From assembly GCA_903926565.1 (NCBI GenBank), contig CAIYJU010000059.1, forward strand, positions 1 to 36,541: 36,541 bases of DNA, written 5' to 3'. Shown one piece after another: positions 16,011 through 20,175 of this stretch (position 1 is the first letter of the stretch; every line of letters starts with the position of its first letter). This DNA comes from an uncultured Bacteroidales bacterium. GTDB lineage: Bacteria > Bacteroidota > Bacteroidia > Bacteroidales > FEN-979. Below the pieces are notes generated by a model. It searched no databases. It was not told the origin of the DNA and saw nothing but the letters and a program-made list of their open reading frames with translations. A program made the position numbers and the translations under genes.

Positions 16011-17282
16011 ATGTTCACCCTCATGATTGTTGTCTTTATTGCCGGATATGCACTAATTGCGCTGGAACATCCGCTGAAGATCAACAAGTCAGCCACTGCC
16101 CTGCTGCTTGCTACAGCCATGTGGGTGCTATTCGGAATTGCATCCCCGCAACCTTTTTCCGACAAAATTCTGGTTGAACATTTAGGTGAAATATCCGGAA
16201 TTCTCTTTTTTCTTCTCGGAGCCATGACTATCGTTGAACTCATTGATTCACATGAAGGATTCCGGATCATCACCGATAAAATAAAAACAACCGATAAGGT
16301 CAAACTCCTCTGGCTGATCAGCATTATTGCCTTTTTTCTGTCAGCTGTTCTCGACAACCTCACCACCGCCATTGTCATGGTTGCGTTGCTCCGAAAACTG
16401 ATCGGCGAAAAGAAAGAGCGCTGGTTCTTTGCCGGGATGGTCATTATCGCAGCAAACAGCGGTGGTGCGTTCAGCCCGATCGGCGATGTCACCACGATCA
16501 TGCTCTGGGCAGGCGGCCATGTTACAACAGTCAATATCATTTTAAAAACCTTTATCCCCAGCGCATTGTCCATGATTGTGCCGCTGGGGATATTGTCTTT
16601 CACGCTGAAAGGCAGTATCATGAAACCCGCCAGGACAGTTATTGATCATGCAAACTCATCTACCCCGTCAGAAAGAAATATTGTCTTTTTTCTTGGCGTC
16701 GGCCTGCTTCTTTTTGTTCCTGTGTTTAAAGCACTTACGAATCTGCCACCGTATATGGGCATGTTGTTTGCACTTGGTATGCTTTGGGTGGTCACTGAAA
16801 TCATGCACAAAGCAAAAAATGATGCCTACCGGCCGATGGTCACGGTGGCTGGTGTCATCCGCAGGGTTGACACGCCCAGCATCCTCTTTTTCCTGGGGAT
16901 ATTGCTTGCTGTGGCAGCGCTTCAATCATCGGGGCACATTAAACTCCTTGCCGGCGCCCTTGACAAGCATGTGGAAAACCTGTATCTGATCAACGTGATG
17001 ATCGGGTTGCTTTCGGCGGTGGTTGACAATGTGCCGCTGGTGGCCGGCGCCATGGCCATGTACCAGGACACTTTTCCAACCGATCACTATTTTTGGGAGA
17101 TGCTGGCCTATTGTGCCGGTACGGGTGGAAGTATTCTTATCATTGGTTCTGCAGCCGGCGTTGCCGTGATGGGAATGGAAAAAATTGATTTCATCTGGTA
17201 CCTGAAAAAGATCTCGTGGCTGGCATTGACAGGATATCTTGCCGGGGCTGTTGTTTATTGGCTGATGAGTGTTTATTTATGA
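16011..17282 (+). CDS. nhaD: NhaD-type Na+/H+ antiporter
   Basis: 423 residues with about ten to twelve hydrophobic segments. NhaD/ArsB superfamily hallmarks are AVLDNLTTAIVMVALLRKL (~112-130), NSGGAFSPIGDVTTIMLW (~154-171) and, in the second half, LSAVVDNVPLVAGAMAMY (~335-352). Paired DN motifs in two inverted halves are expected for this family. It exports Na+ (or Li+) in exchange for H+ at the inner membrane, supporting salt and pH balance. Its TGA overlaps the recQ ATG (ATGA, 17279-17282), so translation is probably coupled. The GTG/ATG choice is not in doubt: ATG at 16011 follows the cyclophilin stop by 20 bp. Confidence 0.9.
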   Translation: MFTLMIVVFIAGYALIALEHPLKINKSATALLLATAMWVLFGIASPQPFSDKILVEHLGEISGILFFLLGAMTIVELIDSHEGFRIITDKIKTTDKVKLLWLISIIAFFLSAVLDNLTTAIVMVALLRKLIGEKKERWFFAGMVIIAANSGGAFSPIGDVTTIMLWAGGHVTTVNIILKTFIPSALSMIVPLGILSFTLKGSIMKPARTVIDHANSSTPSERNIVFFLGVGLLLFVPVFKALTNLPPYMGMLFALGMLWVVTEIMHKAKNDAYRPMVTVAGVIRRVDTPSILFFLGILLAVAALQSSGHIKLLAGALDKHVENLYLINVMIGLLSAVVDNVPLVAGAMAMYQDTFPTDHYFWEMLAYCAGTGGSILIIGSAAGVAVMGMEKIDFIWYLKKISWLALTGYLAGAVVYWLMSVYL

Positions 17283-19180
17283 CGATCCATCAAATATTAC
17301 TGAAATACTGGGGATTCTCATCCTTCCGTCCTTTGCAGGAGGAGATCATCCAGTCTGTTCTGGATGGACGGGACACCCTGGCTTTGCTGCCAACGGGCGG
17401 CGGAAAATCGTTGTGTTTCCAGGTTCCTGCACTCGCCCGCGACGGTGTATGCCTGGTTATCTCTCCGCTTATTGCCCTGATGAAAGACCAGGTCGACAAT
17501 CTTAAAAAACGCGGGATTCCTGCTGCAGCGCTCCATTCAGGCATGCATCCTGATGAAATAAGGATCATCCTTGACAATTGCTGTTTTGGCAAAACCAAGT
17601 TGCTGTATATCTCACCCGAACGGCTCACCACAGGGAATATGCGTGAAGCCATGAAACGCATGAAAATCAACCTGCTTGTCGTTGACGAGGCTCACTGTGT
17701 TTCTCAATGGGGCTACGATTTCAGGCCTCCTTACCTGCAGATTGCCAGTATCAGACCGATGATCCCCGACATCCCTGTGATGGCACTTACTGCTACTGCA
17801 ACACCGAAAGTTGTAGCCGATATCCAGCGAAAACTGGCGTTCAGGAAAGAGCTCGTTTTTCAGAAAAGTTTCGAGCGGAAGAACCTCACATACCTGGTTT
17901 TAAAGGAGGAAGACAAGCTCAAACGACTTATAAAGATCCTGGGTAAAGTGAAAGGGCCGGGTATTGTATATGTCCGCAACCGCCGCAACACCAAAGAGAT
18001 AGCTGAACACCTTCAGAAAAACAACATCAGTGCCGACTTTTATCATGCCGGTCTGGATCCGAAGACACGTGACCGCCGGCAAGCGGCCTGGATCAGTGAA
18101 GAGAAACGGATCATTGTTTCGACCAATGCCTTTGGAATGGGAATCGACAAACCGAACGTGCGGGTTGTGGTCCACCTTGATCTGCCCGACAGCATCGAGG
18201 CCTATTTTCAGGAAGCCGGGAGAGGGGGCCGTGATGAAAAAAGGGCCTATGCAGTGCTCCTGTATGAAAAAGCCGACATTCTTGATTCGAGGCACAACCT
18301 GGTGCTCTCCTATCCTGAGCTGAAAATCATCCGGGATGTATACCAGGGACTGGGCAACTATTTCCAGCTGCCTGTCGGAATGGGCAAAGATGTTAAATTT
18401 GATTTTGACCTTGCGGCATTTTCCGAACAGTACAAATTTCAGCCTGTGATTGTATATAATTGTCTGAAATTTCTTGAGAAAGAGGGATTTATCATGCTGA
18501 GTGAAGGCCTGCACCACCCGTCAAAAATATTTATCAAGGCACCAAAAGAGGAGCTGTACCGCTTTCAGGTGGAACATGAGCAATTCGACCATTTCATTAA
18601 AATCATGTTGCGGTCATACAGCGGGATACTCTCAGATTTTATCAGTTTCAACGAAGCCGAACTTGCCCGCAGAAGCAATCTGACCCTGGAAAAAACAGTG
18701 AATATCCTGAAGCATCTTGCCAAATTGCAAATCCTCGATTATCTGCCTCAATCTGACAAACCACAAATCATCTACCTGCAGGAACGTCTGGATACCCGCG
18801 ACCTGACCATATCGCCCGAAAACTACAAAGACAGGCTGAAAGATGCAGAAAAAAGACTGGAAACCATGATCGGTTATGCTGAGGGCACCAACAGGTGCCG
18901 GAGCCAGGCACTGCTGGCCTATTTTGGCGAGTGTGATACAAAGCGATGCGGCAAATGTGATGTGTGCATTGAACGAAATAAAATCAATCTGAACGAGATG
19001 GAATTCAACAACATCGTTGAAGTTATCAAACCTTTGTTGAAAACCAGGCCGAGCACACTGGATGAGCTGGTTGCTGCGGCGCATCCGGTCAATGAAGACA
19101 AGGTGATCCGGGCGATTCAATGGCTGACGGATAATGAAAAAATCAGTGTGGACCGGGAACGAAAATACAAATGGCATTAA
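17279..19180 (+). CDS. recQ: ATP-dependent DNA helicase RecQ
   Basis: 633 residues from the ATG at 17279; the frame is open further upstream to 17216, but that would run into nhaD. Helicase motifs: motif 0 WGFSSFRPLQEEII, Walker A TGGGKS (39-44), DEAH with DEAHCVSQWGYDFRPPY, motif V/VI STNAFGMGIDKPNVR and QEAGRGGRD. The RecQ-C zinc site uses Cys540, Cys557, Cys560 and Cys563 (CGKCDVC), followed by a winged-helix domain. The C-terminus ends at a short helical domain (PLLKTRPSTLDELVAAA) rather than a recognisable HRDC. It unwinds DNA 3' to 5' in recombination and fork repair. The aromatic loop has Tyr (QWGYDF) where His is usual. Confidence 0.95.
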   Translation: MTIHQILLKYWGFSSFRPLQEEIIQSVLDGRDTLALLPTGGGKSLCFQVPALARDGVCLVISPLIALMKDQVDNLKKRGIPAAALHSGMHPDEIRIILDNCCFGKTKLLYISPERLTTGNMREAMKRMKINLLVVDEAHCVSQWGYDFRPPYLQIASIRPMIPDIPVMALTATATPKVVADIQRKLAFRKELVFQKSFERKNLTYLVLKEEDKLKRLIKILGKVKGPGIVYVRNRRNTKEIAEHLQKNNISADFYHAGLDPKTRDRRQAAWISEEKRIIVSTNAFGMGIDKPNVRVVVHLDLPDSIEAYFQEAGRGGRDEKRAYAVLLYEKADILDSRHNLVLSYPELKIIRDVYQGLGNYFQLPVGMGKDVKFDFDLAAFSEQYKFQPVIVYNCLKFLEKEGFIMLSEGLHHPSKIFIKAPKEELYRFQVEHEQFDHFIKIMLRSYSGILSDFISFNEAELARRSNLTLEKTVNILKHLAKLQILDYLPQSDKPQIIYLQERLDTRDLTISPENYKDRLKDAEKRLETMIGYAEGTNRCRSQALLAYFGECDTKRCGKCDVCIERNKINLNEMEFNNIVEVIKPLLKTRPSTLDELVAAAHPVNEDKVIRAIQWLTDNEKISVDRERKYKWH

Positions 19181-19199: not shown

Positions 19200-19511
19200 A
19201 TGATATCTTCACTTCTTCTTTCAGTTATCCTGTTTATGACCGGTGCGCCCGATAACCCGGTCGATAAAAAATGTCAGTTTAAGGGCTTTAACCTATATGG
19301 AAAAATAAAAGTGGTAACTGATTTTCCCGATATTAAGGTGAAAATTGTTGAAAATTTTCCTGATCTGAAAGTCCAGGTTGTTGAAAATTTCCCTGACCAA
19401 TGTGGAAAATGGAAGTTCGTAACCGATTTTCCCGACATCAAAATCAAGTTCGTAACCGACTTCCCGGATATCAAGATCAAATTCGTGGAAAACTTCCCTG
19501 GAACCCCCTGA
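19200..19511 (+). CDS. Small exported 11-residue (FPD) repeat protein
   Basis: 103 residues. A short hydrophobic N-terminus (ISSLLLSVILFMTGA) looks like a signal peptide. From residue 37 to 100 the protein is six copies of an 11-residue unit of the form (K/Q)(V/I/F)V(T-D or E-N)FPD(I/L)K(V/I). Units 1, 4 and 5 carry TDFPD and units 2, 3 and 6 carry ENFP. Unit 3 is extended by an insert, QCGKW. Codons differ between copies, so the repeat is kept at protein level. Cys25 and Cys68 are the only cysteines in the mature part and could form a disulfide. The alternating hydrophobic pattern suggests a small beta-solenoid or stacked-strand fold. I have an unverified impression that similar FPD-repeat proteins exist elsewhere; I know no function. 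It starts 19 bp after recQ. Confidence 0.75.
   Translation: MISSLLLSVILFMTGAPDNPVDKKCQFKGFNLYGKIKVVTDFPDIKVKIVENFPDLKVQVVENFPDQCGKWKFVTDFPDIKIKFVTDFPDIKIKFVENFPGTP
19308..19499 (+). repeat. Six degenerate 33-bp coding repeats
   Basis: Six in-frame units encode the FPD repeats. Five have the full 33-bp length or are cut only by the gene end; the third is 39 bp because of the QCGKW insert. Nucleotide identity between units is moderate, with many synonymous differences such as gattttcccgat versus gacttcccggat, which argues against a recent slippage expansion. Confidence 0.75.
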
Positions 19512-19518
19512 ACTGATC

Positions 19519-19553
19519 ATTCATAATTCGTTATTCAATATTCGACATTCAAT
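19519..19553 (+). repeat. ATTCNNN heptamer tandem repeat, five units
   Basis: ATTC occurs at 19519, 19526, 19533, 19540 and 19547, an exact 7-base period: ATTCATA, ATTCGTT, ATTCAAT, ATTCGAC, ATTCAAT. The tract fills almost the whole gap between the repeat protein and the glycosylase gene, ending one base before its ATG. Confidence 0.7.
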
Positions 19554-19554
19554 C

Positions 19555-20175
19555 ATGTCCCTCCTCCCTCAAAGTTTCTACACCCGCCCCGATGTTGTTC
19601 AAATCGCCGGTGACTTACTTGGCAAACACTTGTATACCAATATCGACGGAACCATAACCTCCGGTATGATCTGCGAAACGGAGGCTTATGCCGGAATAAC
19701 TGATAAAGCTTCCCATGCCTATGGAGGAAGGCGCACCAACCGTACAGAAACCATGTATGCCCGGGGAGGCATTGCCTATGTTTACCTGTGCTACGGAATC
19801 CATTCACTGTTTAATGTTGTCACCAACCTGCCTGGCATCCCTCATGCCGTGCTGATCCGTGCGATCATCCCGGCAGATGGTATTGATTACATGTTAAAAC
19901 GGACAGAAAAAGAGAAGGTGACAAAGAATTTCGGGACCGGTCCCGGCAGGGTTTCCAGGTTACTCGGAATTCATTTTCGCCATTCGGGTCTCGACCTCAC
20001 AGGAAAGGATCTCCTCACCCCCCCGGCTATTTGGATTGAAGACTGCGGATTTAATGTAAGTGCGGAAATGATTTCTGCAGGTCCGAGGGTTGGGGTCGGA
20101 TATGCAGGACAAGACGCCTTGCTTCCATACAGGTTTAAACTCGTAACAATTTCTGAATCAACCTGCGATTTGTAA
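19555..20175 (+). CDS. Alkyladenine (3-methyladenine) DNA glycosylase, AAG/MPG family
   Basis: 206 residues, the usual bacterial length. It removes alkylated and deaminated purines in base excision repair. The active-site loop ICETEAYAG supplies the catalytic Glu43 and Tyr45 (equivalent to human Glu125 and Tyr127), KASHAYGGRRTNR supplies His54, and GGIAYVYLCYGIHSLFNVV is the family's central strand block. GTGPGRVSRLLGI is the C-terminal signature. It is a monofunctional glycosylase in this family. It follows the FPD repeat gene by 43 bp that are almost all ATTCNNN heptamers, so it may still be co-transcribed with recQ, a plausible repair pairing. Confidence 0.93.
   Translation: MSLLPQSFYTRPDVVQIAGDLLGKHLYTNIDGTITSGMICETEAYAGITDKASHAYGGRRTNRTETMYARGGIAYVYLCYGIHSLFNVVTNLPGIPHAVLIRAIIPADGIDYMLKRTEKEKVTKNFGTGPGRVSRLLGIHFRHSGLDLTGKDLLTPPAIWIEDCGFNVSAEMISAGPRVGVGYAGQDALLPYRFKLVTISESTCDL

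Follow-up and report, generated by a model that had tools for sequence, protein, structure and literature searches.

An accessory FPD-repeat protein of Bacteroidales related by sequence homology and predicted fold to the torus-knotted protein Q9PR55

In the literature surveyed, the 7_1 torus knot of Q9PR55 (UU089.1 of Ureaplasma; PDB 8IWA, 8IWB, 8IWC, 8JRM and 8W68) is more complicated than any other protein knot confirmed so far. It was first seen in an AlphaFold prediction and then by crystallography (8IWA; PMC13352647), the structure paper being Hsu et al. 2024 (cited in PMC11223836 and PMC13123833). Its knot core comprises residues 27-83 (Brems et al., PMC9278004). The same authors describe P73136, a protein of 112 aa that is 48% identical to Q9PR55, as a probable homolog and report for it a predicted 5_1 knot with one winding fewer (PMC9278004). 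In that literature Q9PR55 is the one solved protein with a 7_1 knot, and no function is given for it. The Knotted Solenoid fold (PNAS 2026, PMC13123833) also concerns knotted bacterial proteins built from strand repeats, but there, as described, a 3_1 trefoil arises from an order-shifted solenoid, unlike the torus knot of the Q9PR55 type. Two further groupings are relevant, namely phrog_6462, whose function is unnamed, and DUF6150 (PF19647). A search of the open-licence literature found no paper under the names UU089.1 or DUF6150 and none on torus-knot proteins of Bacteroidetes. The fold discussed below is already known from Q9PR55; variants of it that carry a leader, a pair of cysteines, a second domain or a link to phages were not found described in that literature.

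The gene considered here lies in a window of 36,541 nucleotides, the whole stretch of DNA analysed, which is a contig of an uncultured Bacteroidales bacterium. It is a single-copy gene in this genome and runs on the plus strand, like every feature given below, from an ATG at 19200 to 19511, encoding 103 aa. Residues 1-17 (19200-19250) resemble the hydrophobic leader of a signal peptide, as read directly from the residues; there is no basic residue ahead of the hydrophobic stretch, and leaders are present in many relatives too. Behind the leader come Cys25 (codon 19272-19274) and then six units, five of the full 11 residues and the last cut short: VVTDFPDIKVK (19311-19343), IVENFPDLKVQ (19344-19376), VVENFPDQCGK (19377-19409), which holds Cys68 (codon 19401-19403) and is followed by an extra WK (19410-19415), FVTDFPDIKIK twice (19416-19448 and 19449-19481) and FVENFPGTP (19482-19508). 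The order TD-EN-EN-(insert)-TD-TD-EN that had been read from the sequence alone is therefore correct, with the qualification that the last unit is incomplete, and Cys25 and Cys68 are indeed the only cysteines of the protein. A scan for promoters and terminators found no terminator and two promoter-like sites, where 1.1 would be expected by chance.

The periodicity is far beyond chance. Residues 11 positions apart are identical in 31 of 58 comparisons within the 69-residue repeat region, whereas 10,000 shuffles averaged 5.4 and never exceeded 17. Where two units share a residue they share its codon in 34 of 88 cases, against 38 expected from the codon usage of five neighboring genes (P for as many or more, 0.83). 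Because this agreement is no higher than codon usage predicts, the units are old and held at the protein level, the latter as the sequence-only reading had proposed from the divergence of the codons. Recent duplication of units as the origin of the repeat is ruled out by the codons, except perhaps for units 4 and 5, the DNA of which is 82% identical and is matched by a tandem-repeat row of TRF (19413-19486).

Pfam places the protein in no family at E up to 1 and leaves it below the gathering cut-off of DUF6150, and NCBIfam holds no convincing model for it, the one match (E 0.1) lying far under the cut-off. The absence of a recognized domain, as first supposed, thus holds for these two collections but not more widely, since the protein covers positions 5-103 of phrog_6462, a profile of 103 positions, with E 5.6e-31 and a PDB entry also matches. 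A phmmer search of the PDB found chain A of 8iwa, that is UU089.1, with E 2.4e-10, the next entry being a glutathione transferase, 8qll, at the chance-level E of 0.094; a profile of 29 sequences matched 8iwa with E 1.2e-14 and nothing else up to E 1. The alignments span residues 25-85 (phmmer) and 26-85 (profile) of Q9PR55 and so include the entire published knot core (27-83; limits from PMC9278004), which in the phmmer alignment corresponds to residues 36-90 of the window protein (19305-19469) with a single length difference of two residues. Identity over the core is about 40%, and the two proteins share FPD-type turns between strands and a similarly small size. The window protein differs in its leader-like N-terminus, its stricter repeats, its accessory settings and its N-terminal and loop cysteines, although for this last comparison Q9PR55 was considered only from residue 25 onward.

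Structure prediction agrees with the sequence match. AlphaFold2, given the mature part and 29 diverse sequences (the window protein and the related loci found with it) and no templates, produced a model of six strands with mean pLDDT 96.1 and pTM 0.83, and the five models ranged from 94.2 to 96.1 in pLDDT. A set of 19 sequences, most of them close, gave a pLDDT of 41 when the leader was retained. Foldseek placed 8iwa and 8iwb as the best PDB matches to the model (probability 1.00, TM 0.57-0.64, rmsd 3.3-3.4, 68 columns); the NMR model 8jrm matched poorly (TM 0.30-0.31, rmsd 10.2). Only entries for Q9PR55 (8iwa, 8iwb and 8jrm, all under E 0.001) fell under E 6 in that search, the next having a probability of at most 0.01, and no solved solenoid was matched; a search of BFVD returned nothing under E 0.001. 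Knotted Solenoid entries were absent from the Foldseek matches, although the library searched may not contain them. By homology and by predicted fold, then, the window protein is assigned to the fold family of Q9PR55.

Two other folds have to be weighed against a 7_1 knot. The sequence-only reading had suggested a small beta-solenoid or a self-stacking strand protein, and had proposed structure prediction of the monomer among its checks; that prediction is confident but resembles the 8IWA knot and not a solenoid. A strict 11-residue period is what an ordinary short solenoid would show, and AlphaFold2 is reported to return confident yet unrealistic solenoids for repeats (PMC11795689) and to ignore topological barriers and chain crossing (PMC10672856). 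On the other side, the one sequence relative of solved structure is a torus knot, Foldseek recovers Q9PR55 and no solenoid, and the loop after unit 3 keeps its place throughout the aligned family, as would be expected of a closed domain in which the number of units is set. The 8IWA structure was released in 2024, presumably after the training cut-off of AlphaFold2. A model that resembles this later knot and is unlike solenoids argues against a solenoid artefact, but not against an artefact of chain crossing. An ordinary solenoid or stack of strands now seems highly improbable. A simpler topology within the same fold family deserves more weight, yet we regard it as rather unlikely: the N-terminal strand would omit the last winding, giving a 5_1 knot like the one predicted for P73136, or something simpler still. 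The 48% identity reported between Q9PR55 and P73136, which are one winding apart, shows how close relatives may differ in this respect (PMC9278004). A TM score to 8iwa of only about 0.6 likewise means that the winding may differ. Against this, the aligned segment covers the whole 7_1 core of Q9PR55 with one two-residue difference in length. A torus knot of one type or the other is very likely on the predicted fold, and 7_1 is the slightly favored assignment for the window protein.

The cysteines point to a further feature of the fold. In the family alignment one cysteine stands shortly ahead of a conserved [YFH]G[KNR] and a second in xCG[KE]W, the loop that follows unit 3. The two go together: among 97 domains, a count that leaves out four DUF6150-like loci, the loop cysteine is present in 76 of the 83 with the N-terminal cysteine and absent from 12 of the 14 without it. 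Fisher's test gives 5e-9 for all, 5.5e-6 for 70 rows below 80% identity and 8e-4 for 40 rows below 65%, although the test ignores shared descent and the counts are not independent. If a C-terminal cysteine is also accepted as the partner, 81 of the 83 domains have one (4e-8 on the 70 rows, with the same limitation). A C-terminal cysteine without one in the loop occurs in L016, L037, L038, L086, L089 and L090, and together with a shifted loop cysteine in L093 and L094; it arises at three places in the tree (L037; L016 with L090, L093 and L094; L086 with L089). Nine of the 12 cysteine-free domains form one clade; the three that fall outside it are L078, L092 and domain 1 of L019. The exceptions to the pattern are L081 and L106, with the loop cysteine only, and L103 and L107, with no partner, the cysteine of L107 lying within the leader. 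More than one cysteine is present in the N-terminal region of 16 domains. Seven members (L062, L072, L073, L075, L076, L077 and L084) keep both cysteines though apparently leaderless, and six (L046-L048, L109, L110 and L114) have a leader and no cysteine pair. A disulfide pinning the N-terminal tail is the simplest reading of this covariation, and the pattern hints at selection for a chain that stays pinned; alternatively, the paired cysteines may form a metal site. The relatives with a C-terminal cysteine would, if bonded, be naturally closed knots and are candidates for covalently closed knots.

The family is scattered rather than universal. Matches at E 0.001 or better were found in 18 of 61 genomes comprising that of the window and its relatives, the 18 including the window genome itself, a decayed remnant (G015) and DUF6150-like proteins. 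At E 1e-4, 11 of 395 genomes of a phylum sample and 50 of 393 genomes of an order sample matched, the latter with 63 places carrying a gene of the family (knot places) and with none in the other 343 genomes. The scan of genome contigs gave 19 loci, two of them from Myxococcota, and plasmid records gave two relatives from Leptospira weilii and one from Burkholderia stagnalis that is 43% identical. The Leptospira plasmid copy fits phrog_6462 better (E 1e-48) than the window protein does. No match was found in the phages collection to the window protein (E 0.01) or to the Leptospira protein (E 0.001), and a viral scan with the YGED-type alignment gave no relative. One archaeal candidate, L040, was rejected, its frame containing stops and a run of X. 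Altogether 101 different domains of the family were aligned, from records of Bacteroidota, Myxococcota, Spirochaetota and Pseudomonadota. Searching with the window protein also brought up L014, which scores above the DUF6150 cut-off (28.9 against 27 bits), and L017, L099 and L100 resemble it by eye; these DUF6150-like rows lack the N-terminal cysteine segment seen in the aligned family.

Seven orthologs from the same genus are 72-78% identical to the window protein. Over the mature part they differ from it at 10-14 of 80 residues and at 37-51 third codon positions. The NG86 method gave a finite dS for 16 of 28 pairs within the genus, the others being saturated, with a median dN/dS of 0.04 and a maximum of 0.07; YN00, computed for six of the seven comparisons with the window gene, gave about 0.13-0.28. 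The genus orthologs are under purifying selection, dN/dS being well under 1 by both methods. Relatives across Bacteroidota, the search for which had been proposed along with the repeat, were found; they keep the repeat and many of them have leaders. Loss of the repeat among homologs and a dN/dS near 1, either of which had been named as fatal to the sequence-only reading, were not what was seen.

The ATG lies 19 nt beyond the end of recQ (17216-19180; the start is as listed and the true one may lie further in), and the gene for a methylpurine-DNA glycosylase (AAG; 19555-20175) follows. Pfam bears out both neighbors as originally assigned; we place both outside the system. The interval before AAG contains an imperfect 14-base tandem repeat of 2.6 copies (19518-19553). 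Within the genus this setting is kept, recQ preceding the intact gene at eight of eight loci and AAG following it at seven of eight. Eleven genus-mates have no intact copy, and AAG was found in ten of them: six have recQ and AAG with no copy between, one has a remnant, and in the other three recQ was not seen within the short flank. The remnant (G015; L018 and L151, contig G015:C159) is broken by stops and adjoins an AAG gene with the first 59 residues missing from its match. As the same site is empty in close relatives, the gene is dispensable. It is accessory: close relatives have or lack it at one site, and where it occurs it is conserved. The check on recQ synteny that had been suggested thus succeeds within the genus, but the arrangement was seen nowhere beyond it and is uninformative on function. 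Elsewhere, among ten neighbors of six loci, two of them without a family, the genes next to relatives encode transglutaminase-like, PepSY and TPR proteins, a CoA transferase and a nucleotidyltransferase, CorA, and YebC with Usp. A link to DNA repair through recQ and AAG was considered and rejected, the site being confined to the genus, the gene being absent from six of the ten AAG loci of genus-mates and the neighbors elsewhere being unrelated.

A different set of neighbors recurs in part of the family. On the Leptospira weilii plasmid the relative lies within a tail operon and overlaps the gene for baseplate J directly after it; upstream are genes annotated as tape measure, DUF6046 and tail protein X, then a gene for the baseplate hub (phrog_4930) and two more whose PHROGs have no known function and which, from their position, may encode the spike and a gp25-like protein. 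Nine viral contigs share this arrangement from hub to baseplate J, and Leptospira-type copies with the hub in the same tail operon are L121-L127, L130, L131 and L139. In other viral contigs a hub match stands beside the gene at L118, L128 and L132 (one contig), L137, and L106 and L133. L104 adjoins a gene for the terminase small subunit, L108 a tail protein gene, and L114 lies between a moron and an Rz-like spanin gene. Beside L095 (G481) stands only the other tail gene. Counted together, the copies beside the phrog_4930 hub or in its tail operon include L015, L081, L085, L087, L089, L091, L092, L098, L175, L106, L118 and L137. Genes similar to IS605 OrfB/TnpB occur near knot-family genes on two viral contigs (L101, 4927-6153; L129, 2568-3911).

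In Bacteroidales the association can be counted, with 63 knot places set against 60 hub rows from order samples of equal size. The hub rows fall in 48 of the 393 genomes, and 13 genomes hold both a knot place and a hub. At ten of the 63 knot places a hub match is 12-177 bp away, and these places are spread over nine genomes and six families; such closeness would be expected about once in a few thousand for a random pair in a 4 Mb genome. In all ten the knot gene and the hub are on opposite strands. Eight pairs diverge and two converge, the copies of the convergent pairs being among the weakest members of the family (E 5e-8 and 4e-5). The other 53 knot places have no link to a hub, and no knot place accompanies 49 of the 60 hub rows; when hub loci were read individually, a knot place was seen in 3 of 30. 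No hub gene was found in the window genome. On a tree of 96 domains the 15 rows linked to hub or tail genes are clustered, requiring 9 changes where shuffling gives 14.2 (none of 500 shuffles reached so low a number), although rows with short flanks may be wrongly counted as unlinked. The starred branches force at least four changes, so the link with phage tails has been made or moved more than once. Part of the family is linked to phages and has been carried repeatedly by prophages.

The reading that we consider probable as a whole is that of an exported protein of the Q9PR55 fold, a disulfide-stapled torus knot encoded by an accessory gene that prophages carry; for the window protein we infer the knot type, the export, the disulfide and the role. 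Removal of the leader, which suggests export, would leave the mature protein. Its six short strands, joined by FPD turns, would wind into a torus knot, either 7_1 as in Q9PR55 or 5_1 as in the prediction for P73136, and a disulfide between Cys25 in the N-terminal tail and Cys68 in the mid-loop would pin the tail so that the knot could not slip open. The product would serve the cell envelope as a binding module, compact and very stable, its knotted core and stapled tail presumably being hard to unfold or cut and so fit for the envelope or the cell exterior. Of the earlier description, a small, exported-looking, strand-rich repeat protein under selection at the protein level survives and the solenoid or self-stacking fold does not.

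Carriage by several kinds of prophage, a leader and, often, a strand of its own are typical of lysogenic-conversion genes. Proximity to the hub hints that the protein has a partner in the incoming tail, and for this reason superinfection exclusion is the best single guess at a role: a periplasmic lysogenic-conversion or superinfection-exclusion factor acting on incoming phage tails. We offer this assignment tentatively and think it doubtful in the particular; carriage by prophages applies to part of the family and not to the window copy, and export is read from leaders. The copy between recQ and AAG would be a chromosomal, domesticated version. The same neighborhoods could instead mean that phage tails contain the protein as a structural component or need it for assembly, for example at the spike tip, with stand-alone copies as tail remnants. 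The ten places 12-177 bp from a hub gene and the Leptospira-type copies, set between tail genes and overlapping baseplate J, are what such a part would predict. It would hardly predict the leaders with which the tail-linked copies L139, L121, L118 and L015 start, or the opposite strand of all ten hub-linked copies in Bacteroidales, and as 49 of 60 hub rows adjoin no knot place, such tails are built without a knot protein. We judge a tail part unlikely. A greater possibility, though still short of probable, is a stability module of the cytosol or envelope with no connection to phages, whose phage copies would be passengers. The 53 knot places away from any hub and the relatives that are apparently leaderless would suit such a module; its absence from 343 of 393 genomes of the order and the empty sites in close relatives are unlike housekeeping genes, and the several independent phage settings also speak against mere passengers.

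With about 100 related domains, accessory and partly tied to phage tails, the wider family offers a way to ask what knots do. As the genes are accessory and some are tied to phage tails, gene removal, phage challenge and tests of the cysteines are straightforward. Much bolder, and improbable as a complete account, is the proposal that disulfide-closed torus knots are exported by bacteria and their prophages to serve as weapons or shields, in which most members would be pinned at the N-terminus, the few lineages with a C-terminal cysteine would be covalently closed 7_1 (or 5_1) knots, three chromosomes would encode composite double knots and the hub-linked copies would act in the periplasm on incoming tails. 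The candidates for the composites are three members, L019 (G027:C325), L067 (G635:C199) and L070 (G502:C3), that have two family domains in tandem in a single ORF. Should both domains be knotted, each such chain would form a composite knot whose crossings outnumber those of every knot confirmed by experiment in the literature surveyed; the composite knots described by Brems et al. are of the 3_1#3_1 type (PMC9278004).

The two residues before FPD tend to match among the units of one protein (DA, DH, ES/DS/NS and TD/EN, from L012, L047, L042 and the window protein), as if stacked positions change together.
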